From contig JALONH010000003.1 of the NCBI GenBank assembly GCA_025455005.1, positions 62,001 through 126,000 of the forward strand: DNA of 64,000 bases, given 5' to 3'. Below, piece after piece: positions 13,329-29,832 of the stretch. This DNA comes from Cytophagaceae bacterium (GTDB taxonomy: Bacteria > Bacteroidota > Bacteroidia > Cytophagales > Cytophagaceae). The notes under the pieces were generated by a model. The model was not told where the DNA came from. It searched no databases and saw nothing but the letters and a program-made list of their open reading frames with translations. Each line of letters starts with the position of its first letter. The stretch's first letter is position 1. A program made the translations under genes and the position numbers.

Positions 13329-13357
13329 TCCAGTTTTTTTAACCAAAACATTGTCCT

Positions 13358-15061
13358 ATGTATAAATTTGATTTACCTACTCATCATAAATCCATCATCA
13401 AAGTTATAGGTGTTGGTGGCGGGGGTTCCAATGCGGTTAACCATATGTATAACCTAGGAATCAAAGATGTTGAATTTGTAGTTTGTAATACGGATGTTCA
13501 AGCATTGAACAGTAGCCCTATTCCAAATAAATTACAAATCGGGGTTAATCTGACGGATGGTTTAGGTGCCGGAGCTAACCCGGAAAGAGGTAAAAATGCA
13601 GCTTTAGAAAGCAAAGAAGATATTCGAAATTTGTTGAGTAATAATACCAAAATGGTTTTTATTACAGCAGGTATGGGCGGTGGAACCGGTACGGGAGCTG
13701 CTCCTGTGATTGCTAAAATGGCAAAAGAGCTAGATGTTTTAACTGTAGGTATTGTTACAGCTCCCTTTGGTTTTGAAGGTAAAAAGAAACTGTTACAAGC
13801 CGATCAAGGGATAGCTGAATTGAGAGCCTATTGCGATACAGTTCTAGTTATTATGAACGATAGGTTACGGGAAGTGTATGGTAATTTATCGATACGGGAA
13901 GCATTTGCTAAAGCGGACAACGTTTTAACTACTGCAGCAAAAAGTATTGCCGAGATCATTACGGTAACGAGTGATGTCAACGTCGATTTCGAAGATGTTA
14001 AAACGGTAATGAAAGATTCCGGTGCTGCGGTGATGGGGTCTGCAGTTGCAAGTGGTGAAGGTAGAGCACGTAGAGCGATTGAAGAAGCACTAGCTTCTCC
14101 ATTATTGAATAATACAGATATTAAAGGGGCAAAAAAGATTTTACTTTCAGTTTCTTACGGTTTAGATGTAGAATTATTGATGGATGAATTATCTTCTATT
14201 ACAGATTATATTTCTGAATTAGTTGGGGATGACCAAGAGATGATCTTCGGCCAAGGTGCAGAAGCTGAATTGGGAGATGCTATCCGTGTTACAATAATTG
14301 CTACCGGTTTCGATGCCAGCAGAAATACTAAATTAGAATATACATCAAATAAAAAAGTTGAAATACTAGAACCGGCTAAACAAATAACTATTTTCGATGC
14401 CATTCAGGAATCAGAAAAGAATAGTGTTGAATCGGCATCAGAAGTTACCATTTCTGAATATAAAGTTGAATCTTTTGAAACGCCTGTGGAGGAACCAAAA
14501 GCTCCTACCCAAACCATTTTTGTTGAAGTAGAAAAACCGGTTGATCCTACTGTTACTGAAATACCTACCACCTTCTTTAATTGGGAATTGACTCAGAAAC
14601 TTCCATCCGACTCTATGGAAGAAACCCCGGTTTCGCAAGAAGACGTAAAACAGCCAACTTCTTATACTTGGGAAGTTTCTACTCCTACAGCTTTTTCACC
14701 GGAGGAGTCTAAGGAAACAGTTCAGCCTCAAGCATCAAATGATACAGAGGAAGATTATGTAACAAAGGTAGATTCCATAAAAGAAAATACTAAATCGGAA
14801 GATGTTTTAGCAGAAGAACAACGCAATCGACTTATAGAAGCTTCAAAAGAGAGGATTCGTAAATTAAAAAGCTTAAGTGGTCATGGAAATTATTCTCATG
14901 AACAGTTTAAAGATATGTTAGACCGTCCGGCTTACGAACGAAAGAATGTAAATTTAAATGATACTCCACATTCTTCAGAACGAAATATATCGAGGTTTAA
15001 TCTAAACGATGATAATGAATTGTTAGGAAACAATAAGTTTTTACACGACAACGTAGACTAA
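13358..15061 (+). CDS. ftsZ: Cell division GTPase FtsZ
   Basis: Tubulin-like GTPase forming the Z-ring. The GTPase core spans residues about 15-325, with GVGGGGSNAVNHM at the N-terminus, the tubulin signature loop at G107-GGTGTG113, and FGFEGKKK. A long acidic, proline- and threonine-containing linker (about 330-530) follows. The C-terminal peptide FNLNDDNELLGNNKFLHDNVD is the Bacteroidota-type conserved tail that binds FtsA. The linker explains the 567-aa length against under 400 aa in E. coli. It is the last gene of the dcw operon and is followed four bases later by a terminator. Confidence 0.97.
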   Translation: MYKFDLPTHHKSIIKVIGVGGGGSNAVNHMYNLGIKDVEFVVCNTDVQALNSSPIPNKLQIGVNLTDGLGAGANPERGKNAALESKEDIRNLLSNNTKMVFITAGMGGGTGTGAAPVIAKMAKELDVLTVGIVTAPFGFEGKKKLLQADQGIAELRAYCDTVLVIMNDRLREVYGNLSIREAFAKADNVLTTAAKSIAEIITVTSDVNVDFEDVKTVMKDSGAAVMGSAVASGEGRARRAIEEALASPLLNNTDIKGAKKILLSVSYGLDVELLMDELSSITDYISELVGDDQEMIFGQGAEAELGDAIRVTIIATGFDASRNTKLEYTSNKKVEILEPAKQITIFDAIQESEKNSVESASEVTISEYKVESFETPVEEPKAPTQTIFVEVEKPVDPTVTEIPTTFFNWELTQKLPSDSMEETPVSQEDVKQPTSYTWEVSTPTAFSPEESKETVQPQASNDTEEDYVTKVDSIKENTKSEDVLAEEQRNRLIEASKERIRKLKSLSGHGNYSHEQFKDMLDRPAYERKNVNLNDTPHSSERNISRFNLNDDNELLGNNKFLHDNVD

Positions 15062-15064
15062 GGG

Positions 15065-15092
15065 AATAAGGGGCTCAAGCCCCTTATTTTTT
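15065..15092. terminator. Bidirectional terminator closing the dcw operon
   Basis: The stem AATAAGGGG / CCCCTTATT with a short CTCAAG loop is followed by a run of T on the + strand. It starts four bases after the ftsZ stop. Its T-run overlaps the 3' end of the opposing gene, whose last lysine codons are encoded by it. Confidence 0.85.
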
Positions 15093-15650
15093 TTTCTTTT
15101 TATCTTCATTAGGTAATGCAGCCGGTGTAGGTGTTGGACTTGTTTGCTCTATGTTTTGTTTGGCTTGTTCTTCGGGAGTTTTAGTTTTATCGTCAACAAA
15201 ATAATTTAATGCTATAAATTGATTGTCAGAGAAACTTACCCAAACTTTCTCTATATCCGATCCTAAAAATAGTTTTTCAAAACAAAAAAATTGTATGTGG
15301 GTTTCGCCCGAAGCTATAGGATACTGACAACTATAATCACCGGAAGACGCAGATGTTGTAAAGTTGTAAAACAATTCACCTGATTTTGTTAAAATATAGA
15401 TTTTATAATCTTTCCAAGCGAATGGTTGGGCTTTAATGTTATTGATTAAGGCTACTTTCATCACGGAAAATATAGTACCATCCGCTCTTTTATTTGCACT
15501 TATAGATTGCGGATATGCACCTATGGTTAGGTGAATACTGTTAGAAGGATTTGAAATGACTTCTAAATAGTATTCATTCATTGGGTTTGTTTGTTGCGCT
15601 CGTAAAGGGTAAGAACAACAAAGTAAAAGCAAGAGAATTATTTTTATCAT
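15084..15650 (-). CDS. Secreted hypothetical protein
   Basis: Unrecognised 188-aa protein with a clear Sec signal peptide (MIKIILLLLLCCSYPLRAQQ, cleavage expected before QQ or just after). The mature part looks like a beta-rich soluble domain, then a low-complexity tail rich in threonine and proline (QTSPTPTPAALPNED) ending in five lysines. Those lysine codons lie in the T-tract of the ftsZ terminator. Its ATG abuts the stop of the upstream FMN reductase gene on the same strand, so the two are probably co-transcribed. No function can be assigned. Confidence 0.75.
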   Translation of the reverse strand: MIKIILLLLLCCSYPLRAQQTNPMNEYYLEVISNPSNSIHLTIGAYPQSISANKRADGTIFSVMKVALINNIKAQPFAWKDYKIYILTKSGELFYNFTTSASSGDYSCQYPIASGETHIQFFCFEKLFLGSDIEKVWVSFSDNQFIALNYFVDDKTKTPEEQAKQNIEQTSPTPTPAALPNEDKKKKK

Positions 15651-16175
15651 TTAAAATTCTAGTAAAAGTTGAATTTGTTGGTCGATTAAATCACTTAATA
15701 AAGTGTCTTTTACTTCTCCGTCGATAAATACTTTTTCTACTTTCGTAAGTCTCGGTTTGTTGGCTAAAACATGCATACCTAAGTAGTTTAAAATATCCGT
15801 CCAATGACTTAACGCTAAACAACCGCCCATAGTACCCGATCCTAAACCAATTAAAGCTGCTTTTTTGTTTCGAAAACTACCGGGATAATCTAATCCATCA
15901 ATGAATGCTTTTAACACACCCGGAAACGATCCGTTATATTCCGGTATTACAAAAATGAATTTATCCGCTCGTTTTACTTGATCTTTTAACTTGTTAAATT
16001 GTTCATCTTTTCCTTGATTGCCATAGAGGGCTGATGTAATATAGGTAGCCGGCATTTCTTGTAAATTGATAATAGTAAAAGGAATGGATAGTTGTTCCAA
16101 TTTTTTACCATAATATTGGGCTACTTTTAAGGTAGTCGATTGTGGTCGATTAGTTCCAGCTATAATGCCTATCAT
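15651..16175 (-). CDS. NAD(P)H-dependent FMN reductase family flavoprotein
   Basis: Flavodoxin-fold protein of 174 aa. The phosphate-binding loop is at the N-terminus (MIGIIAGTNRPQSTTLKVAQYYG). VIPEYNGSFPGVLKAFIDGLDYP near residue 85 and ALIGLGSGTMGGCLALSHWTDIL are characteristic of NADPH-dependent FMN reductases and azoreductase-like enzymes. I use the ATG at 16175; an upstream in-frame ATG would add 17 residues with no family match. The exact substrate is unknown. It heads a two-gene leftward unit and is divergent from the response regulator across a 103-bp spacer. Confidence 0.85.
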   Translation of the reverse strand: MIGIIAGTNRPQSTTLKVAQYYGKKLEQLSIPFTIINLQEMPATYITSALYGNQGKDEQFNKLKDQVKRADKFIFVIPEYNGSFPGVLKAFIDGLDYPGSFRNKKAALIGLGSGTMGGCLALSHWTDILNYLGMHVLANKPRLTKVEKVFIDGEVKDTLLSDLIDQQIQLLLEF

Positions 16176-16220
16176 ATTTAGAATCTCTTTAGATTTAACG
16201 CGTATATTAAGGTTACAATT

Positions 16221-16265
16221 TAGCAAATTATGCTATATTTATAATTACCTAGGGTAGATTACCCT
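16221..16265. promoter_or_regulatory. Two inverted repeats in the divergent spacer upstream of the response regulator
   Basis: TAGCA-N5-TGCTA at 16221-16235 and the perfect AGGGTA-GAT-TACCCT at 16251-16265 lie between the FMN reductase and the response regulator. A -7-like TATATTTA at 16234-16241 lies between them, so the second repeat would fall in the early leader. They are candidate operators, perhaps for autoregulation; this is inference. Confidence 0.35.
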
Positions 16266-16278
16266 CATAAATCTCAAT

Positions 16279-16956
16279 ATGAAAATATTAGTCATTGAAG
16301 ATGAAAAAGAGCTCCGTCAAACCCTTTTGACCTTTCTCCTTCAGGAAGGCTACACTTGTGAGACAGCTCGAACATTTTCTGAAGCTTCAGAAAAAATTGC
16401 CTGTTATACCTATGATATTTTTTTAGTAGATCTAATGATTCCGGGGGGGGATGGGATGGATTTAGTTACTGAGATAAAGAAAAAACATACACAATCCGGA
16501 ATTATAATTTTATCCGCAAAAAATGCTATCGAAGATAAGATTAAAGGTTTAGATGTTGGATCAGATGATTACTTAACCAAACCATTTCATTTAGCTGAAT
16601 TGAATGCTCGTATAAAATCGCTGTTAAGGAGAAGGATTTTCGAAGGGAATAAAGATATAATCTTTCAAGAAATTCGAATCAATCCCGAAAGCAGAGAAGT
16701 ATTTGTAGCGTCAAAAAAAGTACTGTTAACAGGTAAAGAATACGATCTACTACTATTTTTTATTTCAAACAAAGGTAGAGTTATACCTAAAGATTCAATA
16801 GTAGAACATATATGGGGTGACCATATGGATCAAAGCGATTCATTAGATTTTATTTATACCCATATTAAAAATATGAGAAAAAAATTGTTAGAAGCCGGTG
16901 CGAACGATTATTTACAAACAGTGTACGGAATAGGATATAAATTTCAAGTAGGATGA
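16279..16956 (+). CDS. OmpR/PhoB-family response regulator
   Basis: Two-component response regulator of 225 aa. The receiver domain covers residues 1-115, with acidic pocket E8-D9, phosphoacceptor D51 (FLVDLMIPGGDG), S79 and K101 (YLTKPF). The winged-helix DNA-binding domain covers about 125-224, containing LLTGKEYDLLLFFISNKGRVIPKDSIVEHIWG and the terminal TVYGIGYKF motif. It overlaps the kinase gene by four bases. The downstream dab-type operon begins 79 bp after the kinase, so regulation of inorganic-carbon uptake is a reasonable but untested guess. Confidence 0.93.
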   Translation: MKILVIEDEKELRQTLLTFLLQEGYTCETARTFSEASEKIACYTYDIFLVDLMIPGGDGMDLVTEIKKKHTQSGIIILSAKNAIEDKIKGLDVGSDDYLTKPFHLAELNARIKSLLRRRIFEGNKDIIFQEIRINPESREVFVASKKVLLTGKEYDLLLFFISNKGRVIPKDSIVEHIWGDHMDQSDSLDFIYTHIKNMRKKLLEAGANDYLQTVYGIGYKFQVG

Positions 16957-18209
16957 AGCTTATACAAAAAACATTTTTATACTATTTGGTGTATTCCCTT
17001 TTCATTTTTACCATTGGTACTGTCGTATTTTATTTTTCCATAAAAAAAGTATTGTTTGATGGTATTGATGAAGCTTTACATCAAGAAAAAATACAGTTAA
17101 TGGAGAATTTAAACTATGAAAAAGATTTTAATTATTTTGAAGAATCAGATGTTTTAAAAATATCTAAAATTGCATCCCCTCAAAAAGTAAAAGATATCTA
17201 TTCTACGGTTAGTCTTAAGGATTCTACAACTTTAGAAAGTATAGATTTCCGCGAGTTACATTCTATAGTTTATCATAATGGTCAATATTATGATGTAATT
17301 ATTCGACAATCGTTAACAGAAGCAGAAACTTTAATTAATTCAATTTTACCAATTGAAGTGTTTTTATTTATAGGTCTTATAATTGGTATTTTAGTTATAA
17401 ACAGGGTGATATCTAAAAAAATATGGGAACCTTTTTATATTCTATTAAATAAGTTATCTGATTATAATCCAGTTCATCATTCTGTTATTTTAAGCGAACC
17501 ATCCAATGTATTCGAATTCGATGAATTAAATAAAAACATAGAACGGATGACAAGAAAAATTCATCAAGACTATGTAAGTCAAAAAGAGTTTCATGAACAT
17601 TCATCCCATGAATTACAAACTCCTTTAGCCATCATTCGCAATAAATTAGAACTTTTAATCCAATCTAAAAATTTATCGGAAGAAGAGTTGAATTATGTTA
17701 GTAGTATTTTTGATACTATTCGTAGGTTGTCTTCACTTAATAAAAATTTACTTCTATTATCTAAAATAGAAAATAATCAATTTATAGAAACACAGTCGGT
17801 TTCTTTAGATATTTTATTACATAAACAATTAAATCATCTCCAAGAAATTATTCACCAAAAAGGAGTTACTCTATATACAGCAATTTTACCGGATGTGGTC
17901 ATTAAAGCCAACGAAGTATTAATAGAAACGTTATGTTATAATTTATTAAGTAATGCCATTAATCATAATATACCCAATGGAACGATGGAGGTTATATTGA
18001 ATCATGATTATCTTAAAATAGCGAATACAGGAAACAAATCTACAATGGATACTAGTAGATTATTTGAACGATTTCAAAAAGGAGACACGTCTTCAACATC
18101 TGTTGGCTTAGGACTTTCTATTGTAAAAAAAATAGCAGAAGGTTATAAATTTAAACTAACATATACTATTAATGAAGGCATGCATTTGATTAGAGTCGAC
18201 TTTAATTAG
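16953..18209 (+). CDS. Membrane sensor histidine kinase
   Basis: 418-aa kinase partnering the overlapping response regulator. Transmembrane helices at about 9-30 and 134-154 flank a roughly 100-residue periplasmic sensor domain without a recognisable family. The dimerisation helix carries H219 in HSSHELQTPLAII. The ATPase domain has the N-box NLLSNAINHN and the G-box VGLGLSIVKKI. No HAMP domain is obvious between helix 2 and H219, although a linker of about 55 residues is present. The signal sensed is unknown. The next gene is dabA. Confidence 0.92.
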   Translation: MKLIQKTFLYYLVYSLFIFTIGTVVFYFSIKKVLFDGIDEALHQEKIQLMENLNYEKDFNYFEESDVLKISKIASPQKVKDIYSTVSLKDSTTLESIDFRELHSIVYHNGQYYDVIIRQSLTEAETLINSILPIEVFLFIGLIIGILVINRVISKKIWEPFYILLNKLSDYNPVHHSVILSEPSNVFEFDELNKNIERMTRKIHQDYVSQKEFHEHSSHELQTPLAIIRNKLELLIQSKNLSEEELNYVSSIFDTIRRLSSLNKNLLLLSKIENNQFIETQSVSLDILLHKQLNHLQEIIHQKGVTLYTAILPDVVIKANEVLIETLCYNLLSNAINHNIPNGTMEVILNHDYLKIANTGNKSTMDTSRLFERFQKGDTSSTSVGLGLSIVKKIAEGYKFKLTYTINEGMHLIRVDFN

Positions 18210-18212
18210 TAG

Positions 18213-18265
18213 TAAATCAACGATTTATTGATTTAGAATTGCTACAGAATGTATGTTTACTTTTA
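18213..18265 (+). promoter_or_regulatory. Inverted repeat and weak -7-like element upstream of dabA
   Basis: A perfect 8-bp inverted repeat TAAATCAA-N7-TTGATTTA lies at 18213-18235, four bases after the kinase stop. It has no following T-run, so it is not a good terminator. A TTG at 18239 and TACTTTTA at 18258-18265 resemble a weak Bacteroidota promoter ending about 24 bp before dabA. The repeat would sit just upstream of the -33 region, where an activator could bind. Confidence 0.35.
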
Positions 18266-18288
18266 GAATAAGTTGTACATATTAGACT

Positions 18289-20787
18289 ATGATAATGTCC
18301 AAAGATTTTAATTTAGAGCAAACGATAAAGAAAATAGGCCATTATTTACCTAATCAAGCTCCATTAAAAGATTTTATCAATCAAAACACTTTAGAAGCCT
18401 TTCAAGGATTACATTTTTATGATGCAATTGAAATGGCTACCATTATTTTTGGTTATAAAACTACATTGTTAGATGATGATTATAGAGCATTATACCAAGA
18501 GGGTAGAATTAAAGATGAAATAGTTGATGCTGTTATCGTTAGAAAGAAAGGTCCAGACGATATTTTGTTTTGGAAAAACAAAATGACACAAGTGGATTAC
18601 CCGAATGAAATTCAACCCAGAATAGGGCAACTTAGAAAACAATGGAAACGTAATTATGATATCGATATTGACTCATATGTTCACAGTATATTATTTCGAT
18701 TATTATGTAATTATTTAGACCAAGGTGTAGCGATTTGGAATTTCCCTATAAGTCCCGACGGTTTTATATCCTCTATTCAAGAACTAGAAAAAAATACATC
18801 CGTATCTTTTTTTAAGACAAAATACATCAAAGAACAATTTCTTTCTAATCAACATTCAATTGAATCATTACTTAAAATAATTGTAGGTGATAATTCAAAC
18901 TTATATGAGTCCTATTTATTTGATCAACAATGGGCCCATCAAGGCTGGTCTGGAATCGTTCATGTTATAGAGAAGAATCCCTCTACCTTGCTGGAAACAA
19001 GAAAGATTTCTATACGTGAGATACTATTTTTAGAACTTTTTTTAGAATGGGATGCATTATATTATCATTTTGGTAAGGATTGGAAACCACTTCAAGAATC
19101 ATTACGGAATACCACTATAGAGCCATTGTTTACACCTATAATAAGAGATGAGTTTTTTGATATTATCGAACTATGGCAAGAAGCATTTGAATGGACTTAT
19201 TATGATCAGGTTTTAGCCGGAATTGCTGAAGTAGAGAGAAAGAATAAACGGGTCGACTACCTAACATTTCAAGGAATATTTTGTATTGATGATCGAGAAG
19301 GTTCTCTGCGACGCTATTTAGAAATGTTGGATCCTAGGTGTGAAACGTATGGAACTCCAGGACATTTTAATGTCGAGTTTTATTATCAACCGGAACAAGG
19401 GAAACATATAACAAAATTGTGTCCTGCGCCAGTTCAACCTAAATTTTTGATAAAAGAAAATTCGTCTCACCGTAAATGGGAAAAAAATGTCGAGTTTTCT
19501 AAACAATCCAATTCATTAATTCGAGGATGGATTTATTCTTTATTAATTGGTTTTTGGTCCATCATAAAATTGTTTAAATATATTTTTAAACCTAATATGA
19601 GTCCCGCCGTAGCCTCGTCCTTCAGTCATATGGATAAAGACTCCACGTTATCTATCGAATTTAATCCTAGCCATCCAACGGAAAAAAACTTACAGATAGG
19701 ATTTACTATAGAAGAAATGGTAGTGCGGGTAGAAACACTTCTGAAAAGTATTGGTTTAACGGATCGATTTGCACCGATAGTTTATATAATAGGGCATGGT
19801 TCCAGTAGTATTAATAATCCACATTATGCAGCTTACGATTGTGGCGCTTGTTCCGGAAGACCGGGCTCTGTTAATGCTCGTGTGTTTTGTTACATGGCCA
19901 ATCATCCGGAAGTTCGTCTTCGTTTACAATCAAAAGGTATAGTTTTATCAGAACACACTAGATTTATTGGTGGATTGCATGATACTACAAGAGATGATAT
20001 TCTTTTTTTTGATGAGGGTAAACTTTCTTCTAAACATCTGGCACTACACCGTGAGTATCAAACTGTGTTTAGTAAGGCTTTAAATAACAATGCAAAAGAA
20101 CGATCTCGAAGATTTAAATCTATAAATACTAAATTATCAGCCGAACAAATCCATGTTAAAGTACAAGAACGTTCCGTATCCTTATTTCAACCAAGGCCTG
20201 AATTAGATCATGCTACAAATGCATTATGTATCGTCGGTAATAGATATATAACAAAAGGTCTTTTCTTAGATCGAAGGGCCTTTATGAATTCGTATGATTA
20301 TGCAAAAGATCCGGAAGGAGTTTATCTATCATCGATCTTAAATGCAGCAACTCCTGTCTGTGGTGGTATTAATCTTCAATATTATTTTTCCAGAGTAGAT
20401 AATCAAAAGTTAGGATCCGGAACAAAGTTGCCTCATAATGTAATGGGTCTGATTGGCGTTGCGAATGGTACCGATGGCGATTTACGTCCCGGGCTTCCAC
20501 TACAAGCTATAGAAGTACATGATCCTATTCGTCTATTAATGATTGTGGAACACTCACCGGAAATAGTTCAAAAAGCTATAGAAAGTAATCCATCTACCTA
20601 TTCTTGGTATTCTAAAGCATGGGTGCATTTAGTTGCTTTCAATCCTTCTGATAGGTCCTTTTATTTATGGAAAAACAATACATTCGAACCCTATACTGTA
20701 GTATTACCGGATGTAGAAATAATCGAACATATAGATACCTTAATAGAATCCAAAGAGGATAATTTCCCTGTATATGTACTAAAATGA
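18289..20787 (+). CDS. dabA: DabA (DUF2309), catalytic subunit of DAB-type inorganic carbon transporter
   Basis: 832-aa cytoplasmic, membrane-associated protein of the DUF2309/DabA family. It is the beta-carbonic-anhydrase-like subunit that, with DabB, is thought to convert CO2 to bicarbonate vectorially. The zinc-site residues are all present: C332 and D334 in FCIDDREGS (with R336), and H503 (IIGHGS) and C518 (AYDCGACSGRPGSVNARV). Their spacings of 2 and 15 residues equal those known for Halothiobacillus DabA (C351, D353, H524, C539). An ATG two codons in is an equally possible start. It overlaps dabB by four bases. No RuBisCO or carboxysome gene is nearby, which fits an anaplerotic role in a heterotroph. 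Confidence 0.93.
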   Translation: MIMSKDFNLEQTIKKIGHYLPNQAPLKDFINQNTLEAFQGLHFYDAIEMATIIFGYKTTLLDDDYRALYQEGRIKDEIVDAVIVRKKGPDDILFWKNKMTQVDYPNEIQPRIGQLRKQWKRNYDIDIDSYVHSILFRLLCNYLDQGVAIWNFPISPDGFISSIQELEKNTSVSFFKTKYIKEQFLSNQHSIESLLKIIVGDNSNLYESYLFDQQWAHQGWSGIVHVIEKNPSTLLETRKISIREILFLELFLEWDALYYHFGKDWKPLQESLRNTTIEPLFTPIIRDEFFDIIELWQEAFEWTYYDQVLAGIAEVERKNKRVDYLTFQGIFCIDDREGSLRRYLEMLDPRCETYGTPGHFNVEFYYQPEQGKHITKLCPAPVQPKFLIKENSSHRKWEKNVEFSKQSNSLIRGWIYSLLIGFWSIIKLFKYIFKPNMSPAVASSFSHMDKDSTLSIEFNPSHPTEKNLQIGFTIEEMVVRVETLLKSIGLTDRFAPIVYIIGHGSSSINNPHYAAYDCGACSGRPGSVNARVFCYMANHPEVRLRLQSKGIVLSEHTRFIGGLHDTTRDDILFFDEGKLSSKHLALHREYQTVFSKALNNNAKERSRRFKSINTKLSAEQIHVKVQERSVSLFQPRPELDHATNALCIVGNRYITKGLFLDRRAFMNSYDYAKDPEGVYLSSILNAATPVCGGINLQYYFSRVDNQKLGSGTKLPHNVMGLIGVANGTDGDLRPGLPLQAIEVHDPIRLLMIVEHSPEIVQKAIESNPSTYSWYSKAWVHLVAFNPSDRSFYLWKNNTFEPYTVVLPDVEIIEHIDTLIESKEDNFPVYVLK

Positions 20788-22658
20788 TGACATTAATATT
20801 ATTAGAGTTTATTATAGCCATTCCAATACTTAGTTTTTTGATGACGTGGTTTGTGCCCGCTTCAGAAGAGAAGTGGATTGCACGTAGTGTTTGGATATTT
20901 AACGCATTTCATTTAATTTTTATTCTCTCTTTTATAGTTCTATGGATTTTAAATGGATCAGATTCTATCAACTTAAAAGAATTAGTCTTATTTAAATCTA
21001 TAGGATATGAATTTTTCATAGATTTTTATTTTGATAAAATCACCGCTGTATTTTCCGTGGTTGGAGCATTTTTAACGCTTTTAATTACAACGTATAGTAG
21101 TGACTATTTACATAGAGAAAAAGGGTATAAACGGTTTTTCAATACCATACAATTTTTTTATGTTGGTTATACCATAATAATATTCTCTGGGAATTTAGAA
21201 ACTCTATTTATCGGGTGGGAAATTCTAGGTGTGTCCTCTTTTTTATTGATAGCGTTTTATGACGATCGATTTTTGCCCGTGAAAAATGCTATAAAAGTAT
21301 TTTCTATCTATCGAATAGGTGACTTGGGCATACTATTAGCTATGTGGTTAAGTCATCACCTATGGCATGAAAATATCACTTTTCATAAGTTAAATAATTT
21401 TGAATTAGTACACGAACATTTGGAATCACATACTTGGGTGGGTGTTTCGATATCATTAATGATTCTCTTGTCTGCATGTGTAAAATCTGCACAATTACCA
21501 TTTAGTTCTTGGTTACCTAGAGCAATGGAAGGGCCCACTCCATCTAGTGCTATTTTTTATGGTTCATTAGCTGTACATTTAGGTGTCTTCTTACTTTTGC
21601 GAACCAATCATTTTTGGGAACAACAGATATCAGTACGGATATTAATAGCCAGTATTGGTTTTTTAACAGCAATTTTAACATCCAGTATCGCACGAGCACA
21701 ATCTTCTATAAAGGGACAGATAGCTTACTCGTCCACTGCACAGATTGGCATAATATTTATAGAAATTGCATTGGGATGGGATATTTTAGCTTTAATACAT
21801 TTTGCTAGTAATGCTTTTTTAAGATCCTATCAATTATTGGTTTCACCCTCTATGGTTAGTTATTTTATTAGAGAATCATTTTTTGTAGATAAACCGACTG
21901 TTGCAACTTGGATCCAGCGTGTACCAAAACGTATTTCATATGGTTTTTATATATTAAGTACTAAAGAATGGAATTTAGATTTATGGATGTATAAAACATA
22001 TTGGGACCCATTGCGCAAAATGAGTGCTATATTAAATACCCCTTTTTGGATTAAAGGAATTTGGTTTACTATTCCTTTATATATTTACTTTTGGTTTAAT
22101 TTTTCTGAACGTTTACTTACAATACATTGGATTCATGATTGGTTGCCATTATTGTTTTCAAGTATTAGTTTGTGGGTGGTGTTTAGAGCATTCGGCGAAA
22201 AAGGTAAACCTTTTCGTGCATGGACTTTAGTGATTTACTATCATTTTTGGACGGCTTTGTCAGTAATGTATAACGAGCAATTCAAGATAGAACAACTTGG
22301 CGTTTATTTAAGTGGTGTTATTGTTTCAGGGATATTGGGAGCTGCACTATTATTGTGGATGCAAAAAAAAGAAAAAGATTTATTATTGGATCGATATAGA
22401 GGTTTAAAAAGACAATATCCTAACCTGTCATTATTTTTTCTATTAGCTTGTTTGGGCTTGTCCGGCTTCCCAATTACACCTACTTTTGTAGGTGAAGATT
22501 TATTATTTACACATATACATGAAGATCAAGTAATCCTTGCTTATATGACTTCTTTAAGTTATGTAGTGGAGGGATTAGCAGTGATGCGCATTTATGCTAG
22601 ACTATTTATGGGACCTAGTATAAGAACCTTTCATGAGATTGCTTACAAATCGTCTTAA
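20784..22658 (+). CDS. dabB: DabB, NuoL/MrpA-like membrane subunit of inorganic carbon transporter
   Basis: 624-aa polytopic membrane protein related to NADH dehydrogenase subunit 5 (NuoL), presumed to couple a cation gradient to DabA. Around a dozen or more hydrophobic helices are visible. The antiporter-like core has FSGNLETLFIGWEILGVSSF, an acidic residue in the GWE motif, and SAQLPFSSWLPRAMEGPTP with conserved lysine VKSAQ. Two features argue against it being part of complex I: direct translational coupling to DUF2309, and the absence of other nuo genes. The C-terminal half is less conserved, as is usual for DabB. It is followed after 11 bp by sulP. Confidence 0.9.
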   Translation: MMTLILLEFIIAIPILSFLMTWFVPASEEKWIARSVWIFNAFHLIFILSFIVLWILNGSDSINLKELVLFKSIGYEFFIDFYFDKITAVFSVVGAFLTLLITTYSSDYLHREKGYKRFFNTIQFFYVGYTIIIFSGNLETLFIGWEILGVSSFLLIAFYDDRFLPVKNAIKVFSIYRIGDLGILLAMWLSHHLWHENITFHKLNNFELVHEHLESHTWVGVSISLMILLSACVKSAQLPFSSWLPRAMEGPTPSSAIFYGSLAVHLGVFLLLRTNHFWEQQISVRILIASIGFLTAILTSSIARAQSSIKGQIAYSSTAQIGIIFIEIALGWDILALIHFASNAFLRSYQLLVSPSMVSYFIRESFFVDKPTVATWIQRVPKRISYGFYILSTKEWNLDLWMYKTYWDPLRKMSAILNTPFWIKGIWFTIPLYIYFWFNFSERLLTIHWIHDWLPLLFSSISLWVVFRAFGEKGKPFRAWTLVIYYHFWTALSVMYNEQFKIEQLGVYLSGVIVSGILGAALLLWMQKKEKDLLLDRYRGLKRQYPNLSLFFLLACLGLSGFPITPTFVGEDLLFTHIHEDQVILAYMTSLSYVVEGLAVMRIYARLFMGPSIRTFHEIAYKSS

Positions 22659-22669
22659 ACAATTAAAAT

Positions 22670-24862
22670 ATGTCCATAATACCCACTATTCCTGCCAGCG
22701 GATTTAAAGGTTTAACTACGCATTGGAAATCAGATATTACTGCTGGTTTTTTAGTTTTCCTTATTGCATTACCTTTATGCTTAGGTATCGCAATGGCAAG
22801 TAAGTTTCCTCCCATAGCAGGAATCATGACAGCTGTTATTGGTGGTTTGTTAGTTACACTTATTCATGGGTCTCATGTCACGATTAAAGGGCCAGCAGCA
22901 GGTTTAATTGTTATAGTACTAGGTTCTGTTGAGACATTAGGTAAAGGGAATGATTTTTTAGGTTATAAATTAACTTTAGCCGTTATTGTAATATCCGGCA
23001 TGATTCAAATGTTATTTGGATTAATGCGAACCGGCGTTTTGGGCGATTTTTTCCCTTCATCAGCCGTTCACGGTATGTTAGCTGCAATAGGTATTATCAT
23101 TATTTCTAAACAGATACATACGGTATTGGGAGTTAAACCTTTGGGTAAAGAGCCTTTTGAGTTATTAGCCGAAATTCCGAAAAGTATAGTACATATGAAT
23201 CCTGAAATTGCGTTTATCGGTATTCTGTCACTACTAATCCTTTTTACCTTTCCATATATTAAAAATCCTTACTTGAAGCTTATTCCGGCCCCCATGTTAG
23301 TGATTATGTTGGCAATACCGTTAGGAAAGTATTTTGATTTAGAACACCAACACGTATACTTGTTTTTAAACCAGGAATTTCAAGTTGGTTCTCAATATTT
23401 GGTTAATCTACCGGATAACATTATAGATGGTTTTCATTTTCCTGATTTTAGTCAAATACTGACATTAGATTCTTTTAAATACATAATCATGTTTGCACTT
23501 GTAGGTAGTTTAGAGTCAATACTAAGTGCTAAAGCAGTTGATATTTTAGATCCCTATAAAAGAAAAACCAATCATAATAAAGATTTATTTGCTGTTGGTC
23601 TTGGGAATACTATTTGTGGTTTCATAGGCGCTTTGCCCATGATTTCTGAAATTGTTCGAAGTTCTGCAAACATAAATAATAAGGCAAAAACGAAATGGTC
23701 TAATTTTTATCATGGAGCCTTTTTATTATTATTTGTAGTTTTGTTACCCGGCTTATTAAAACAGATTCCGCTCGCAGCATTGGGTGCAATGTTGATTTTT
23801 ACCGGCTATCGCTTAGCTTCTCCTAAAGTGTTTAAAGAGGTTAAAAAAGTTGGAAATGATCAGTTGTTAATATTTATAACGACCTTAATCGTAACATTAG
23901 CAACCGACTTGATATTAGGTATTGTAGTGGGTATAGTATTGAAAGTAGCATTGCATTTAGGTTCCGGAGCTACGTTTGCATCACTATTTAAAAAAGGTAT
24001 AGTCGTTAGTCAAATGAATGAAAATCATTATAAAGTGGAGGTAGAAGGAACACTTAATTTTGCAAATTATTTACCATTCAAAGCGGCTTTAGATAAATTA
24101 CCTAATACCGCTCTTATTGAAATAGATGTTAATAAGTTGAAGCTAATCGACCATACTGTTTTAGAAAATTTACACCATTATGCAGAAGATATGCATCGAA
24201 CAGGTGGAAATTTAAAATTAAAAGGAATTGAAAAATTAACACAACGCTCTTCACACCCTTTGTCTGTTCGGACGGCTAAAACATCAAACGATATTGTTGA
24301 GTCAAGAGAATTTTTAATGTTCCAATTGGCGCAACGTATGGGATGGAGTTTTACTTCTTTTGCACTACCGCAAGATTTAGGTTTAGAAGAATTGAATACT
24401 AGAGAAAAAACAATTAAGTACGTCGGTAACATCTTAAAATATAATATTTCGCCCTCTGTTTTAGTAGCTGATATTTCTATTGTTGAAGGAGGGACAATGA
24501 AAGCGGAAGTCCAAAGTCAAACAATTGTTACAGTTAGTGTAGCACATGTACTTCCAACATTTATTATGACTAAAGAAGGAGCATTTGAAAAGTTATTTTT
24601 GAATTCTTTGACTTTAGATATAGATTTTGAAGATTATCCAAACTTCTCCTCCACATATAAATTAACCGGGGATGATGAGCGTAGTGTTCGAAAAATATTT
24701 ACTAACGAACTAATACAATATATTGAGTCTAATCCCACTTATACCGTTCAATCAACGGGTAATAAATTAATATTTACTAAAAATAACGGTATACTAGCAC
24801 CGGATAACATTCCTATTTTGGTTGAGTATGCTCAAGGTTTTTATTCTATCATAAATAAATAA
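22670..24862 (+). CDS. SulP-family anion (bicarbonate/sulfate) permease with STAS and extra C-terminal module
   Basis: 730-aa SLC26/SulP transporter. Residues about 15-440 form the membrane domain (DITAGFLVFLIALPLCLGIAMAS; GSHVTIKGPAAGLIVIV; SLESILSAKAVDIL). A STAS domain follows at about 445-535 (VEVEGTLNFANYL; LIEIDVNKLKLIDHTVLENL). After STAS there are nearly 190 further residues not seen in ordinary SulP proteins, including FSSTYKLTGDDERSVRKIFTNEL, probably a separate soluble domain. SulP proteins carry sulfate, bicarbonate or other anions. Its place 11 bp after dabB and one base before a porin suggests bicarbonate, possibly Na+-coupled as in BicA; this is inference. Confidence 0.9.
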   Translation: MSIIPTIPASGFKGLTTHWKSDITAGFLVFLIALPLCLGIAMASKFPPIAGIMTAVIGGLLVTLIHGSHVTIKGPAAGLIVIVLGSVETLGKGNDFLGYKLTLAVIVISGMIQMLFGLMRTGVLGDFFPSSAVHGMLAAIGIIIISKQIHTVLGVKPLGKEPFELLAEIPKSIVHMNPEIAFIGILSLLILFTFPYIKNPYLKLIPAPMLVIMLAIPLGKYFDLEHQHVYLFLNQEFQVGSQYLVNLPDNIIDGFHFPDFSQILTLDSFKYIIMFALVGSLESILSAKAVDILDPYKRKTNHNKDLFAVGLGNTICGFIGALPMISEIVRSSANINNKAKTKWSNFYHGAFLLLFVVLLPGLLKQIPLAALGAMLIFTGYRLASPKVFKEVKKVGNDQLLIFITTLIVTLATDLILGIVVGIVLKVALHLGSGATFASLFKKGIVVSQMNENHYKVEVEGTLNFANYLPFKAALDKLPNTALIEIDVNKLKLIDHTVLENLHHYAEDMHRTGGNLKLKGIEKLTQRSSHPLSVRTAKTSNDIVESREFLMFQLAQRMGWSFTSFALPQDLGLEELNTREKTIKYVGNILKYNISPSVLVADISIVEGGTMKAEVQSQTIVTVSVAHVLPTFIMTKEGAFEKLFLNSLTLDIDFEDYPNFSSTYKLTGDDERSVRKIFTNELIQYIESNPTYTVQSTGNKLIFTKNNGILAPDNIPILVEYAQGFYSIINK

Positions 24863-24863
24863 T

Positions 24864-26267
24864 ATGAAACGTATAGTAGTTTTATTTTTTATAGTTCTTT
24901 GTACTAAAGTTATAGCACAAAAAGATTCGGCATCAACTCCTATAGTTAATACTCCATTGACACCATTAAAATGGGAGATAGGTGCAAATGGAAAACAGTA
25001 TATCCAACTATCCGGTTTGTTGCAAAGCTGGATGCGATATAATGAATTTAATCCTTCCACAACTATTAATGGGGTTGATGAAAATGCTATTATTGATTTT
25101 GGCATACGTAGAATGAGACTTCAACTTTTAGGTCAATTAAGCCCTAAGGTGTTTTTTTATACACAATTAGGTATGAATAGCTTCTCATTTATATCGGAAA
25201 GGAAATTCGGACTTTTTTTTCATGATATTACGGGAGAGGTGGAATGTATAGAAAAGAAGTTAACTATTGGTATGGGGCTAAATGCATGGGTAGGCCCACT
25301 TCGCTTTTCAAGTCCTAGTGTAGGTACTATTATGGGATTAGATTTACCTCTTTTTCAGCAAACAACAAATGATATAAATGACCAATTTGTTCGCCGAATG
25401 GGTATTTTTGCTAAAGGAAATTTGGGTAGATTAAATTATAGGATAAGTGTATCAAAGCCTTTTATCGTAAATTATTCCGCTGCAGTTCCAATACCAGGTG
25501 CTCAAGCCGGCGTCCCTAAATTAGGAGCTATGGGATATGGGGTATCTACCTTTGCTACAGATAACCCAAAACTTCAATATAACACCTATCTGATTTTTAA
25601 TATTAAAGATGTTGAAACAAATAAAATTCCCTACAACGTAGGAACGTATTTGGGTAAAAAAACAATTTTTAATATTGGGGGAGGTATTCAATTTCAGCCG
25701 GACGCCATGTGGTATAAAGAATTAAATACGACTACAGGATCTTCTGATACCATTCGTCAAAATTTAACCATACTCGGTATAGATGTTATGTGGGAGAAAA
25801 AACTATTTAAATCCGATGATATGTTACACCTGTATGGGGCTTGGATGTATAGTAATTATGGGAAAAATTATGTAAGAAATTTTGCTCCTATGAACCCAAC
25901 TGATGCAGGATATGGTAACTACAACACAACTACCTTATACAAAAGTGGGACGGGATTAGCCTTTCCTATGAACGGCACCGGACATACTATTTATGCACAA
26001 GTAGGATATAAGTTTAAAGAAAATTTACTAAAGCATCATGGAACATTAATGCCTTATACTATGATACAATATTCGTTATTTGATGCATTAAATAAAGGTA
26101 TTGCAGTTTATGATATAGGCTTGCATTGGTTATGGATTCAACATAATGTTAAAACAAGTATTAATTATCAAAATAGACCCTATTTGACTCAAGATACTAT
26201 TGGGTCAGAAATAGAAACAGAGAATAGAAAAAGTTTAGTAGTACTACAATTACAACTTTCCTTTTAA
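24864..26267 (+). CDS. Outer-membrane porin (phosphate-selective/OprP-like) of the inorganic carbon cluster
   Basis: 467-aa protein with a signal peptide (MKRIVVLFFIVLCTKVIAQ). It is rich in alternating beta-strand patterns and aromatic girdle residues and ends in the typical outer-membrane C-terminal strand (KSLVVLQLQLSF, final F). Segments such as FGIRRMRLQLLGQLSPKVFFYTQLG resemble OprO/OprP-type porins. It starts one base after the sulP stop, so it is almost certainly in the same transcript. I infer it lets bicarbonate or a related anion through the outer membrane. Its stop abuts the stop of rsgA on the other strand. Confidence 0.8.
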   Translation: MKRIVVLFFIVLCTKVIAQKDSASTPIVNTPLTPLKWEIGANGKQYIQLSGLLQSWMRYNEFNPSTTINGVDENAIIDFGIRRMRLQLLGQLSPKVFFYTQLGMNSFSFISERKFGLFFHDITGEVECIEKKLTIGMGLNAWVGPLRFSSPSVGTIMGLDLPLFQQTTNDINDQFVRRMGIFAKGNLGRLNYRISVSKPFIVNYSAAVPIPGAQAGVPKLGAMGYGVSTFATDNPKLQYNTYLIFNIKDVETNKIPYNVGTYLGKKTIFNIGGGIQFQPDAMWYKELNTTTGSSDTIRQNLTILGIDVMWEKKLFKSDDMLHLYGAWMYSNYGKNYVRNFAPMNPTDAGYGNYNTTTLYKSGTGLAFPMNGTGHTIYAQVGYKFKENLLKHHGTLMPYTMIQYSLFDALNKGIAVYDIGLHWLWIQHNVKTSINYQNRPYLTQDTIGSEIETENRKSLVVLQLQLSF

Positions 26268-27191
26268 TCAGCGGTGTGTATCTTCTTCTTGATAGATACT
26301 TATATAACTTTCGTAACGGGATAGGGCAATAGATCCTTTTTCAACAGCCTGTTTAATCGAACAACCGGGTTCATTAATATGTCGACAATTATGAAATTTA
26401 CAACCTCCTAATTTTTTACGCATCTCCGGAAAATAATGCGATAACTCATCACTTCCAATATCAAACACACCTAACTCTTTTATGCCGGGAGTATCAATGA
26501 TCCTACTAGTAGGATTGTAGTCAAACATTTCTGCAAACGTTGTAGTATGTTTTCCTTTATTAGAATAATCCGATATTTCAGATGTTCGTAACATTATTTC
26601 AGGTAATAAATTGTTTAACAAACTAGATTTTCCAACTCCGGAATGGCCGGATAAAAGAGTCGTTTTGTCCTGAAGAAATGTACTAAGAGTATCTAATCCC
26701 TCTTCCGTAACGGTTGAAGTTGTAAGTACAGTGTACCCAATTGATGAATAGATATCATATAAAGTTTGATAAATATACTGATCTTCTGAAGTGTATAAAT
26801 CGATCTTATTGAATATTAAAATGGCGGGAATACGAAAGGCTTCACAAGAAACTAAAAATCGATCGATAAATCCGATGGATGTTCTAGGAGTGTGCAAGGT
26901 AACTACTAAAGCACTCTGATCTAGATTACTTGCTATTAAATGTCCATGAGCAGTTTTATGAGCGGATTTTCGAATAATATAATTTTCTCTGGGATATATT
27001 GTTTCTATAATAGCTATAGAGTCTGTTTCCGATTCTATAGAGAAATCTACCCAATCTCCAACTGCAATAGGATTCGTAACTTTTAACTCTTGTTGTTTAA
27101 ACTTTCCTCTTAATCGAGCTTTATAAAAATAACCCTTATCATCTCTAACTTGATACCACGAACCTGTCGATTTATAAATTAGACCTTTCAT
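26268..27191 (-). CDS. rsgA: Ribosome small subunit-dependent GTPase RsgA
   Basis: Circularly permuted GTPase aiding late 30S subunit maturation, 307 aa. The N-terminal OB-fold begins MKGLIYKSTGSWYQV. The permuted order shows G4 (FNKIDLY) before G1 (LSGHSGVGKSSLLN) and G3 (IIDTPGIKELG). The C-terminal zinc knuckle is CKFHNCRHINEPGC. It follows waaA on the same strand with a four-base overlap. It converges with the porin gene with no space for a separate terminator. Confidence 0.95.
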   Translation of the reverse strand: MKGLIYKSTGSWYQVRDDKGYFYKARLRGKFKQQELKVTNPIAVGDWVDFSIESETDSIAIIETIYPRENYIIRKSAHKTAHGHLIASNLDQSALVVTLHTPRTSIGFIDRFLVSCEAFRIPAILIFNKIDLYTSEDQYIYQTLYDIYSSIGYTVLTTSTVTEEGLDTLSTFLQDKTTLLSGHSGVGKSSLLNNLLPEIMLRTSEISDYSNKGKHTTTFAEMFDYNPTSRIIDTPGIKELGVFDIGSDELSHYFPEMRKKLGGCKFHNCRHINEPGCSIKQAVEKGSIALSRYESYISIYQEEDTHR

Positions 27192-28447
27192 ATAAATAAA
27201 TCCGGATACGAATCTTCTAATTGTTTCATGATTTTATTGGTAGCGCCGGAAGCAACCTCAATAGCATTTTGAAGTCGTATTTTTATAGAGGCTCTGGTTT
27301 CCGGTTGTTGAAGTAGTGCTCTTACTTTCATTTCCCACTCCTTAGCTGATTCTACAGAGAAAGCACAGCCTAACGATATCATCCATTGTGCTTCTTGAAA
27401 CTTTTTAATGTTAGGACCAAATACTATAGGTACACCGAAAACTGCCGGTTCCAATATATTATGTAATCCTTTCCCAAATGCTCCTCCTACATGAACGATA
27501 GTGGCATAATGATACAATGTAGACAGCATTCCCATTGTATCTACAATTAAAATAGAGGTTTCATGTAATGTAGAGTCATCTGTTAGTTCAGAATATTGTG
27601 CTGCAGAGAGTGGATAGATTTGTCGTTTTAGTCGGAGTATACTGTTGCTTCCTATATCATGCGGAACTAGAATACATTTAACACCGGTAGGTAACTGTTT
27701 AATAAAAGGAAGTAAGATACTTACATCTTCCGGCCAACAACTACCTACAACCAAAACACTTGTTGCTGTTGATACGAAATTATCGATTAAGGGTATAGAT
27801 AGTATATTTTTTTTATTTTCGAGTACTCGGTCAAATCGGGTGTCACCGGTCACATTTGAATTAGTATAGCCCAACGAGTGAAGCAGCTCTTGTGATTTAT
27901 AGTCTTGAAGAAAAAAATATTCAAATGAGTTTAACTTCTTTTTAAAAAACTGTCCATACCATTTAAAGAAAAGTTGATCTTTTCTGAATACTCCAGAAAG
28001 TAAATAAGTAGGAATGGAATTGTCTTGTAATACTTGTAATAAGTTTGGCCAGAATTCGTATTTGACAAAGAAAACAATATCGGGTTCTACTTTATTTACC
28101 CAATCCTGCATGATAGAAGAATAATCAGCAGGTAAATAAGCAATGTGTGTAGCTAACGCATAGTTTTTTCGATACTCATATCCACTGGGTGAATAGAAGG
28201 TCAAAAGAATTTCGATAGAAGGTTGTCTTTTTTTTAATGCTTCGATTAATGGACGAGCTTGTTCAAATTCACCAAGTGAAGCACAATGAAACCATAGTCT
28301 TTTAGAACTATTGTTTCGGTTTATGGGAAGGGATAAAGTATATTTTCTTCCTTGAATTATTTGCCGAGCTTTTGTCTTACCGAATGTGGCACCAATTGAT
28401 AAAATACATTCCCAAACCCATAATCCAATGTTGTATATTACTTTCAT
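27188..28447 (-). CDS. waaA: 3-deoxy-D-manno-octulosonic acid transferase WaaA
   Basis: GT30 Kdo transferase linking Kdo to lipid A precursor at the inner membrane, 419 aa. An N-terminal hydrophobic segment (IGLWVWECILSIG) acts as anchor. Diagnostic segments are WFHCASLGEFEQARPLIEALK (catalytic glutamate in GEFEQ) and YLPADYSSIMQDWV. The CMP-Kdo site segments are VVGSCWPEDVSILLPF and HVGGAFGKGLHNILEPAVFG. It implies a lipopolysaccharide-type outer membrane. Co-transcribed with rsgA. Confidence 0.94.
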   Translation of the reverse strand: MKVIYNIGLWVWECILSIGATFGKTKARQIIQGRKYTLSLPINRNNSSKRLWFHCASLGEFEQARPLIEALKKRQPSIEILLTFYSPSGYEYRKNYALATHIAYLPADYSSIMQDWVNKVEPDIVFFVKYEFWPNLLQVLQDNSIPTYLLSGVFRKDQLFFKWYGQFFKKKLNSFEYFFLQDYKSQELLHSLGYTNSNVTGDTRFDRVLENKKNILSIPLIDNFVSTATSVLVVGSCWPEDVSILLPFIKQLPTGVKCILVPHDIGSNSILRLKRQIYPLSAAQYSELTDDSTLHETSILIVDTMGMLSTLYHYATIVHVGGAFGKGLHNILEPAVFGVPIVFGPNIKKFQEAQWMISLGCAFSVESAKEWEMKVRALLQQPETRASIKIRLQNAIEVASGATNKIMKQLEDSYPDLFI

Positions 28448-28474
28448 TGCTGCAATTTACAAAGAATTTAGAGG

Positions 28475-28505
28475 TTTGATATAGAAATATTATATAGTAT
28501 TTTAG
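28475..28505 (+). promoter_or_regulatory. Candidate Bacteroidota promoter of the MFS gene
   Basis: TTTG at 28475-28478, a 19-bp spacer, then TATTTTAG at 28498-28505, which matches TAnnTTTG at all but one specified position. Transcription would begin about 10 bp before the ATG at 28522. Confidence 0.4.
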
Positions 28506-28521
28506 GAGTTTAATTATAGTT

Positions 28522-29775
28522 ATGAAGGACGAATCCAGTACTTTGAAAATAGTTAATGCAACTGTTATTGTTGCAGCACTCGGTTATTTTGTTGATGTAT
28601 ACGACTTAGTGCTATTTATGATTATAGGAGAAAAAAGTTTGTTGAGTATCGGATTCGGTGGTGTAGAGGCAAAGCAAATTTTTTATCAATTATTAGATGT
28701 GCAAATGGTCGGCATGCTTATCGGAGGTATAGTATGGGGTATAATAGGTGATAAACGAGGGCGATTAAGTGTTTTATTTGGTTCAATCATTATGTACTCA
28801 TTAGCTAATGTAGCCAATGGTCTACTGGATTTTTTTCATAGTGGAGCAGATAACACTACTATTACTTGGTATTATATTCTTCGCTTTATAGCTGGTTTTG
28901 GATTAGCCGGGGAACTTGGTGCCGGCATTACATTGGTAAGTGAAATTATGAAAAAAGAAGATAGGGGAATAGGTACTATGATTGTAGCTTCTGTTGGGGT
29001 AACAGGAGCTGTGATGGCTGGTATTATTGGCAAACATTTAGGGTGGCAATGGGCCTATATAATAGGAGGACTTTTAGGATTGTCGTTATTGTTATTGCGC
29101 ATAGGTGTTTTTGAATCCGGAATGTTTGAAAAGAGCAAAAACACTTCTGTAACACATGGGAACTTTTTTACTTTATTTAAAAATAAATCTATCGCGATAC
29201 GTTATATCTATTGTATTACTATAGGATTACCGGTATGGTTTATAATAGGTATTTTAATTAACCGAGCACCTGATTTTGCGCTTTATCTTGGATCAACAGC
29301 AAAAATTGAAAGAGAATATAATATCATGTTTTGTTACGCTGGTCTAGTATTCGGTGATATATGCAGTGGTGCGCTATCTCAATGGTTAAAAAGCAGGAAA
29401 AAGGTTTTATATCTATTTTATTTAATGAGTATAGCTACGATTTTGGTCTACTTAAATATAAGTAATGGTTCTGCTACTTATTTTTATTCAATCATTTTTA
29501 CCTTAGGATTTTCCGTAGGCTTCTGGGCTATATTTGTTACCGTTGCTTCAGAACAATTTGGAACCAACATAAGAGCAACAGCGGCCACAACAGTACCTAA
29601 TTTTGTTCGTGGGTCTTTAGTATTGATAGGGTTACTATTTGGTTATTGTATGCAAACCACACAATCTATTATCCATGCCGCAGCTATTGTTACATGTATT
29701 CTCTTTGTTCTTTCCTTTTGGGCAGCATATCGATTACCGGAAACATTCGGAAAAGAATTAGATTATGTAGAATAA
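28522..29775 (+). CDS. Major facilitator superfamily transporter
   Basis: 417-aa polytopic protein with about 12 transmembrane helices. The MFS loop 2-3 signature is visible as GIIGDKRGRLSVLFGS near residue 76. A second signature-like FAGFGLAGELGAGITLVSEIMKKEDRG resembles the metabolite/H+ symporter subfamily (organic acid or sugar-phosphate type). The substrate is not deducible. It stands alone between divergent waaA and convergent peroxiredoxin. A hairpin follows at its stop codon. Confidence 0.85.
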   Translation: MKDESSTLKIVNATVIVAALGYFVDVYDLVLFMIIGEKSLLSIGFGGVEAKQIFYQLLDVQMVGMLIGGIVWGIIGDKRGRLSVLFGSIIMYSLANVANGLLDFFHSGADNTTITWYYILRFIAGFGLAGELGAGITLVSEIMKKEDRGIGTMIVASVGVTGAVMAGIIGKHLGWQWAYIIGGLLGLSLLLLRIGVFESGMFEKSKNTSVTHGNFFTLFKNKSIAIRYIYCITIGLPVWFIIGILINRAPDFALYLGSTAKIEREYNIMFCYAGLVFGDICSGALSQWLKSRKKVLYLFYLMSIATILVYLNISNGSATYFYSIIFTLGFSVGFWAIFVTVASEQFGTNIRATAATTVPNFVRGSLVLIGLLFGYCMQTTQSIIHAAAIVTCILFVLSFWAAYRLPETFGKELDYVE

Positions 29776-29815: not shown

Positions 29816-29832
29816 AGATGAATTTGAATAAA

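Follow-up and report, generated by a model that had tools for sequence, protein, structure and literature searches.

The window analysed here is a 64,000-nucleotide stretch of a Cytophagaceae bacterium genome (Bacteroidota; contig JALONH010000003.1, positions 62,001 to 126,000). It carries six consecutive genes, all on the + strand, for a response regulator (RR), a sensor histidine kinase (HK), the two subunits of a DAB-type CO2-hydrating pump (DabA and DabB), a SulP-family anion permease and an outer-membrane porin (Table 1), a candidate system for regulated uptake of dissolved inorganic carbon (DIC). Positions, overlaps and gaps all match the original prediction, which was made from the sequence alone: RR/HK and dabA/dabB overlap by 4 bp each, while 79 bp separate HK from dabA, 11 bp dabB from sulP and 1 bp sulP from the porin gene. 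The identities proposed at that time for the two-component pair, DabA, DabB and SulP were confirmed by Pfam and NCBIfam, and that of the porin by a fold model. An Rfam scan of window positions 13000-30000 gave nothing at gathering scores; a sigma-70 pattern scan was at chance level (65 observed vs. 68 expected), and no promoter is claimed.

The genome (2.94 Mb in 45 contigs, 99.6% complete) has a single dabA match, the window copy. DabA is present in 16 of 59 relatives and in 20 of 296 genomes sampled from the phylum. There is no match to the RuBisCO large subunit in the genome of the window, in line with the earlier remark that no carbon-fixation gene is visible, and none to beta-carbonic anhydrase (CA). 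The CA families searched were beta and alpha; one alpha-CA was found, with a lipoprotein-like N-terminus (lipobox judged by eye). One SbtA and a second SulP are encoded elsewhere in the genome.

Table 1. Genes and predicted sites of the locus (coordinates are positions in the window).
Feature	Coordinates	Strand	Evidence
OmpR-type response regulator (RR)	16279..16956	+	Pfam Response_reg and Trans_reg_C; syntenic orthologs 64-72% identical
Sensor histidine kinase (HK), PorY family	16953..18209	+	Pfam HisKA and HATPase_c; NCBIfam NF052314
dabA, putative cytoplasmic CO2-hydrating subunit	18289..20787	+	PF10070, 690 bits; 218 bits to DabA2 (9rd0_A)
dabB, putative membrane ion-translocating subunit	20784..22658	+	PF00361/PF00662 (Proton_antipo_M/N); DabB2 (9rd0_B), E 1e-29
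SulP-family anion permease with extra C-terminal domain	22670..24862	+	PF00916 (Sulfate_transp), 210 bits
Outer-membrane porin	24864..26267	+	AlphaFold2 and Foldseek; tree with G007 and G012 porins
Predicted RR box (11-bp direct repeat) upstream of RR; extends into the start of the FMN-reductase gene, which is divergent	16176..16197	+	Rank 1 of 127,958
Predicted RR box 36 nt upstream of dabA	18231..18252	+	Rank 2 of 127,958, 11-bp spacing only
Flanking flavin mononucleotide (FMN) reductase, syntenic-site marker	15651..16178	-	PF03358; same place in G007, G012 and G016
Flanking rsgA-like gene, syntenic-site marker	26268..27191	-	Same side of pair in G003, G007, G010, G012, G014, G016 and G017

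Pump, permease and porin

According to the available part of its published account, DabAB turns CO2 into bicarbonate, driven by the membrane gradient, with C351, H524 and C539 of DabA2 as zinc ligands and D353-R355 as a dyad (PMC13144422). The structure used for comparison is the DAB2/DAC complex of Halothiobacillus neapolitanus (DabA2-DabB2, PDB 9rd0). The window DabA aligns with PF10070 over its full length (model positions 1-747 of 747, over the cut-off), and its C332, H503, C518, D334 and R336 occupy the zinc-ligand and dyad positions, which are invariant in 106/106 DabA longer than 600 aa. Equivalents of K235, S256, H260, K310, S316 and H339 are present in DabB (6/8 proton-path positions); the remaining two, like the others placed by motif and spacing and not by structure, are changed from H343 to N and from K347 to R. 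Among Bacteroidota DabB, N is found at the first of these in 84/96 and R at the second in 85/96.

SulP scores 122 bits against the BicA equivalog, far under the cut-off of 880, and is not filed as BicA; it has no CA domain match in Pfam. Its C-terminal domain (24260-24859) has no family match and was modelled at a predicted local distance difference test score (pLDDT) of 83; the best fold match is mycobacterial TtfA (6t84, E 5e-5, TMq 0.62), and the domain is common to six named SulP near dab (19-26% identity). While the gene families and residues are read from the sequence, we infer the substrates: gene context points to import of bicarbonate by this SulP.

The porin has no Pfam match at E 0.001 and no sequence-family match to OprP/OprO. 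Its AlphaFold2 model (mean pLDDT 71) is a beta barrel with, counted by eye, about 16 long strands; in a fold search the top match was OprP, a phosphate porin (2o4v, E 6e-12, TMq 0.50, root-mean-square deviation 10.4), and the third was OprO. Judged by the model, the protein is a barrel of the porin fold, with no closer assignment. In the porin tree it groups with the porins of two family genomes, G007 and G012 (support 100/99; 48-51% identical to the window porin; G and L numbers denote genomes and loci of our sample), and the next group out (89/82) consists of dab-linked porins from other lineages. Homologs over 300 bits occur in 11 family genomes, the two porin pieces of G008 being counted as one gene. 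The G016 homolog (390 bits), which has no neighbouring DIC gene, belongs to a sister group with lower scores; in the other ten genomes a DIC transporter lies within about 2 kb in 8, and not in G003 and G007. Members of the sister group (402 bits or less; L203, L236-L247) often lie beside other transporters, such as an SDF dicarboxylate symporter and relatives of a major facilitator superfamily (MFS) carrier; some of these neighbours presumably resemble acetate permeases.

Gene neighbourhoods of dab in Bacteroidota

Named loci are the best 80 of 119 by similarity, reduced to 73 after 7 were dropped for having no usable dabA/dabB pair. Four of 32 whole-genome loci, taken from family-model matches, were dropped on the same ground, and two (L116, L133) duplicate named loci. 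Genes within 5 kb were counted as neighbours, and loci with too little flank as undecidable. Where dabA comes first, sulP is near in 62/73 named loci (1 clear miss, 10 undecidable) and in 10/17 whole-genome loci (6 misses, 1 undecidable); where dabB comes first, it is near in 0/11 (10 misses, 1 undecidable). Genomes have 1 to 5 matches to PF00916, so chance proximity of sulP is estimated at about 1%. The dabA-dabB pair with sulP is a widespread Bacteroidota unit.

The original prediction proposed comparing such neighbourhoods for conserved sulP, porin and kinase pair, and the three fared differently. The sulP association is recurrent, as just described. For the porin, an outer-membrane barrel is frequent near dab (37/73 named loci), either of the window type (16/73 named and 4/17 whole-genome loci) or with DUF2490 (21/73 and 2/17); 18 named loci are clear misses and 18 undecidable. 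RR or HK homologs are near dab in only 5/73 named loci (39 clear misses, 29 undecidable) and 1/17 whole-genome loci, and RR homologs near named dab loci are 23-36% identical to the window RR, compared with 64-72% for syntenic orthologs. As far as linkage goes, the proposed tie of the kinase pair to dab is therefore contradicted.

Several other genes were seen near dab. DUF2490 barrels occur, for example, in L006, whose copy matches PF10677, and in L040; in G013 a related protein comes after SbtA (L214). A beta-CA-like gene, named by similarity, lies by dab in 8/73 named loci (e.g., L002, L040, L044, L061, L074); the L002 copy starts like a lipoprotein and so may be periplasmic. A second type of OmpR-type RR, with an HK, is found beside dab in L004, L018, L048 and L123; these RR are 41-72% identical to one another and 29-33% to the window RR.

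In many of L003-L081 and L121-L146 a small leader open reading frame (ORF; 103-187 aa) also lies ahead of dabA or of whichever gene opens the operon (e.g., L059:9560-9928, L077:9163-9555), with a hydrophobic N-terminus, an often acidic middle and a conserved C-terminal end such as PLYDFFHSWKIHLS. It precedes 75/86 testable dabA-first Bacteroidota operons (a few of the 75, e.g., L023, L056, L066 and L142, resemble something else) vs. 194/1059 other genes, and the C-terminal motif is found in 40/86 operons vs. 6/1059 other genes; the pattern was fitted after the sequences had been viewed and then run on both sets as a single fixed pattern. The nonsynonymous rate (dN) is below the synonymous rate (dS) in 9/9 close pairs, suggesting that the ORF is probably translated. 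Its layout recalls arrest peptides of the SecM/VemP type, and a literature search on arrest peptides gave none in Bacteroidetes by title. The leader ORF is absent from the window, where the sensor pair fills its slot. Among hand-picked loci with a sensor pair (window, L004, L018, L123) it is absent in 3/4, vs. 8/82 others; L040, whose RR/HK pair is a few kb distant, does have the ORF.

The sensor pair, its site and a predicted box

The kinase matches NF052314 (PorY family) at 434 bits (cut-off 350), the only match above the cut-off in the genome. Orthologous pairs lie between ftsZ and an rsgA-like gene (26268..27191 in the window, which we take to be rsgA) without dab in G003, G007, G010, G012, G014, G016 and G017. 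In total, 12 family genomes, the window included, carry the pair at this site, and 11 of the 12 have no dab there; G005, whose gene list ends before ftsZ, was included by its same gene order. Synteny indicates that the pair predates dab at the ftsZ-rsgA site, and by origin it is not the ‘dedicated sensor’ that had been proposed.

At the site, half of the 12 genomes have a DIC transporter, and three kinds are found: dabAB-sulP in the window, SbtA in G012 (PF05982, 400 bits, between HK and porin) and a SulP-CA fusion in four species of one genus (g6; G005, G011, G015, G018), where the order is ftsZ, SulP-CA, FMN reductase, porin, RR, HK. The fusion shows PF00916 and PF00484 on the G005 protein and PF00484 in the other three frames; the G018 kinase at the site is split into two ORFs (L225:1775-4237). 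The porin follows the pair in G007 and G012. In the SulP tree (53 rows, with the shorter SulP of L002-L081 thinned to every third locus), the SulP of the fusion falls in another deep clade than the window SulP, so the DIC sets at the site look like separate acquisitions. The presence of the pair without dab, together with the porin tree, suggests that dabA-dabB-sulP lies between a sensor pair that already occupied the site and a porin for which prior residence is the simplest reading.

Around more distantly related pairs (L198-L202, L204) no neighbour is labelled as a DIC gene. In G001 the pair is present (RR 69%, HK 46%) and DabA absent; G006 and G009 each encode a related kinase (46-47%) that is neither next to a regulator nor beside dab, and G009 likewise lacks DabA.

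The locus might import another small anion (acetate, dicarboxylate or sulfate), with DabAB serving pH or charge balance and SulP and the porin not serving bicarbonate. This is quite unlikely: although the substrate of SulP is unreadable from its family, and the porin sister group lies beside other transporters (in G026, L203, an RR-HK with porin stands next to dicarboxylate-type transporters, one an SDF symporter), the transporters found at this site in the family (SbtA, a SulP-CA fusion or DabAB) all relate to DIC, and sulP accompanies dabA-dabB in most of the Bacteroidota loci compared.

The upstream regions of RR in G007, G012 and G016 have in common an 11-bp direct repeat, at the same place as 16176..16197 in the window. 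A half-site model built from these three genomes alone ranked the window's RR site 1 and the HK-dabA gap 5 among 127,958 positions. In genus g6 a matching repeat stands out as conserved within an intergenic region that elsewhere is 42% identical, and with this element added to the model, and no window data, the two best window sites are those before RR and before dabA. The model fails at spacings of 8-10 and 12-15; a random 79-bp stretch scores as well as the HK-dabA gap with p of about 0.002, and column-permuted models reach rank 2 in 8/1000. When half-sites were not pooled, a 22-mer model left both window sites outside its top eight. As evidence for the box we use only models whose training data came from outside the window; degenerate patterns read off the two window sites were rejected as circular.

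The test least touched by hindsight is the ranking of upstream regions of 101 other dabA with a start placed by alignment (from 110 loci; 7 were unplaceable and 2 at an end). The top three are those of G008 (21.3), G006 (19.0) and G003 (17.2), followed by G110 (15.9) and L007 (11.7). In our sample the family genomes that have the window's DabA type are, besides the window's own, G003, G006 and G008, the assignment of G008 (69% complete) being based on a fragment at 50% identity; in G007 and G016 the type is dabB-first. In G006, where the pair of genes is divergent, the porin-facing box scores 19.0 and the dabA-facing box 14.4. None of the three dabA is beside the sensor pair. In G003, where the pair is on another contig, boxes lie on three contigs, before dabA (17.2), a lone porin (16.4) and a lone sulP (12.5, below the cut of 14) that is sister to the window SulP. 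In the four family members that have this DabA type a predicted box precedes dabA, which supports a connection through a regulon and not through linkage. Among 497 family-locus genes, a box of at least 14 precedes 8/52 DIC, porin or RR genes outside the training set vs. 5/442 others; for this and the permutation test some starts are mis-called (e.g., G008 dabA scored 0.1). A 117-aa gene beside HK (L194-L196, L225) is boxed in all four g6 species and is a possible extra regulon member.

Mere chance neighbourhood, in which an insertion hotspot brought together genes with no functional tie, would suit the varying site content among species of one genus (G007, G012, G016), but fits poorly with the tight junctions, the recurrent sulP and a predicted box which, among 101 dabA, singles out those of the family; we regard it as very improbable.

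Proposed uptake system and comparison with known systems

The two-component system probably controls a DIC uptake regulon that spans both membranes and is gathered here in one locus. Synteny and the recurrence of the box are observed; the signal and the regulation we infer. In this scheme DabAB would hydrate CO2 to bicarbonate in the cytoplasm, using the membrane ion gradient, SulP would bring in bicarbonate, and the porin would pass the anion through the outer membrane. The PorY-family kinase and OmpR-type regulator would sense a DIC-related cue, and the regulator would act through the predicted 11-bp-spaced repeat before the RR gene and before dabA. The sensor pair and the porin would be older residents of the ftsZ-rsgA site, with dabA-dabB-sulP between them; relatives have these genes at scattered places, several of them boxed, or have the site filled by other DIC transporters. 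Given a one-way pump and no cytoplasmic beta-CA match, bicarbonate would build up for carboxylases. More tentatively, and at somewhat less than even odds in our judgement, the PorY-family pair may be a DIC-limitation sensor of heterotrophic Bacteroidota that acts through a conserved 11-bp direct repeat on swappable inner-membrane transporters (DabAB with SulP, SbtA or SulP-CA) and on a porin for bicarbonate in the outer membrane.

Several observations weigh against control of DIC uptake by this pair. The repeat was spotted by eye with the window's gaps in view, and the form of the model was not blind. No box of at least 14 precedes any of the 7/7 labelled SbtA genes, the SulP-CA fusions or the porins of G007 and G012, and none was found in the HK-sbtA gap of G012 or before the RR of G003, G010 and G017. 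The g6 element lies about 530-540 nt before the porin, and four of the five boxed other genes are one orthologous gene, that of 117 aa beside HK. G006 shows only a lone kinase without an adjacent regulator, and G008 only a paralogous pair (RR 48%, HK 33%), itself boxed (16.3). Seven genomes, G007 among them, retain the pair and have no DIC gene at the site. An anti-correlation of DabA with beta-CA was rejected, beta-CA being present in 12/16 DabA-positive relatives vs. 30/43 others. In DabA, the essential E444 in the membrane finger of DabA2 aligns, in a weakly aligned region, with K427, and residues 412-437 have no Glu or Asp; Lys or Arg is aligned at this place in 86/94 Bacteroidota DabA of dabA-first order. 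The altered positions in DabA (E444) and DabB (H343, K347) possibly reflect a different ion coupling, and a Lys or Arg in place of E444, common in Bacteroidota DabA of this class, would bear on how DAB pumps are energised.

The family name of the kinase also points toward type IX secretion. It could thus be the genome's PorY, acting in type IX secretion or envelope control, with dab beside it by an accident of insertion at ftsZ-rsgA. Its score and its place as sole NF052314 match above the cut-off in the genome agree with this, as does the pair without dab at the site in sister genera, but an OmpR-type regulator stands beside the kinase in 27/29 relative places (L156-L184), whereas PorX, the published partner of PorY, is encoded apart from it (PGN_2001 and PGN_1019, in the available part of PMC4800418). 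Moreover, the G007 ortholog of the window kinase scores lowest (420 bits) of three paralogs, and in relatives predicted boxes are found ahead of dabA, porin and sulP genes that are unlinked. We consider this PorY reading unlikely.

Regulated DIC uptake would mean that heterotrophs handle DIC as a nutrient under regulation at both membranes; the exact box coordinates make this idea, like the predicted regulation itself, directly testable. The parts are of known kinds. In the open-access literature, with most subscription journals outside it, we found no dabAB-sulP-porin unit or regulon of this sort, no two-component system for DIC uptake in Bacteroidota and no exchange of transporters around a common sensor and porin.

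Among known systems, OprP and OprO are the first and third barrel matches of the porin model, at fold level only (TMq about 0.5) and without a family-level sequence match. Felce and Saier reportedly described BicA and other SulP bicarbonate transporters, including SulP-carbonic anhydrase fusions. The window SulP shares their family, and in a sister genus the site is occupied by a SulP fused to CA; the window protein itself has no CA domain match and falls well under the BicA cut-off. The kinase belongs to the PorY family by NCBIfam; it differs from PorX/PorY, as far as the available account extends (PMC4800418), in having an adjacent OmpR-type regulator and DIC genes as predicted targets. MpsAB of Staphylococcus aureus is likewise a DAC homolog that provides DIC in a non-autotroph, although its account, in the part available, covers Firmicutes, names no Bacteroidota and makes no link to sulP, porin or a two-component system (PMC8552792). 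With DAB2, to the extent that its source covers it (PMC13144422), the window pump has in common both subunits, the Cys2His zinc site and Asp-Arg dyad, and 6/8 DabB proton-path positions; it differs in the Lys at E444 and the N and R at H343 and K347, and in coming with sulP and a porin beside a two-component system.

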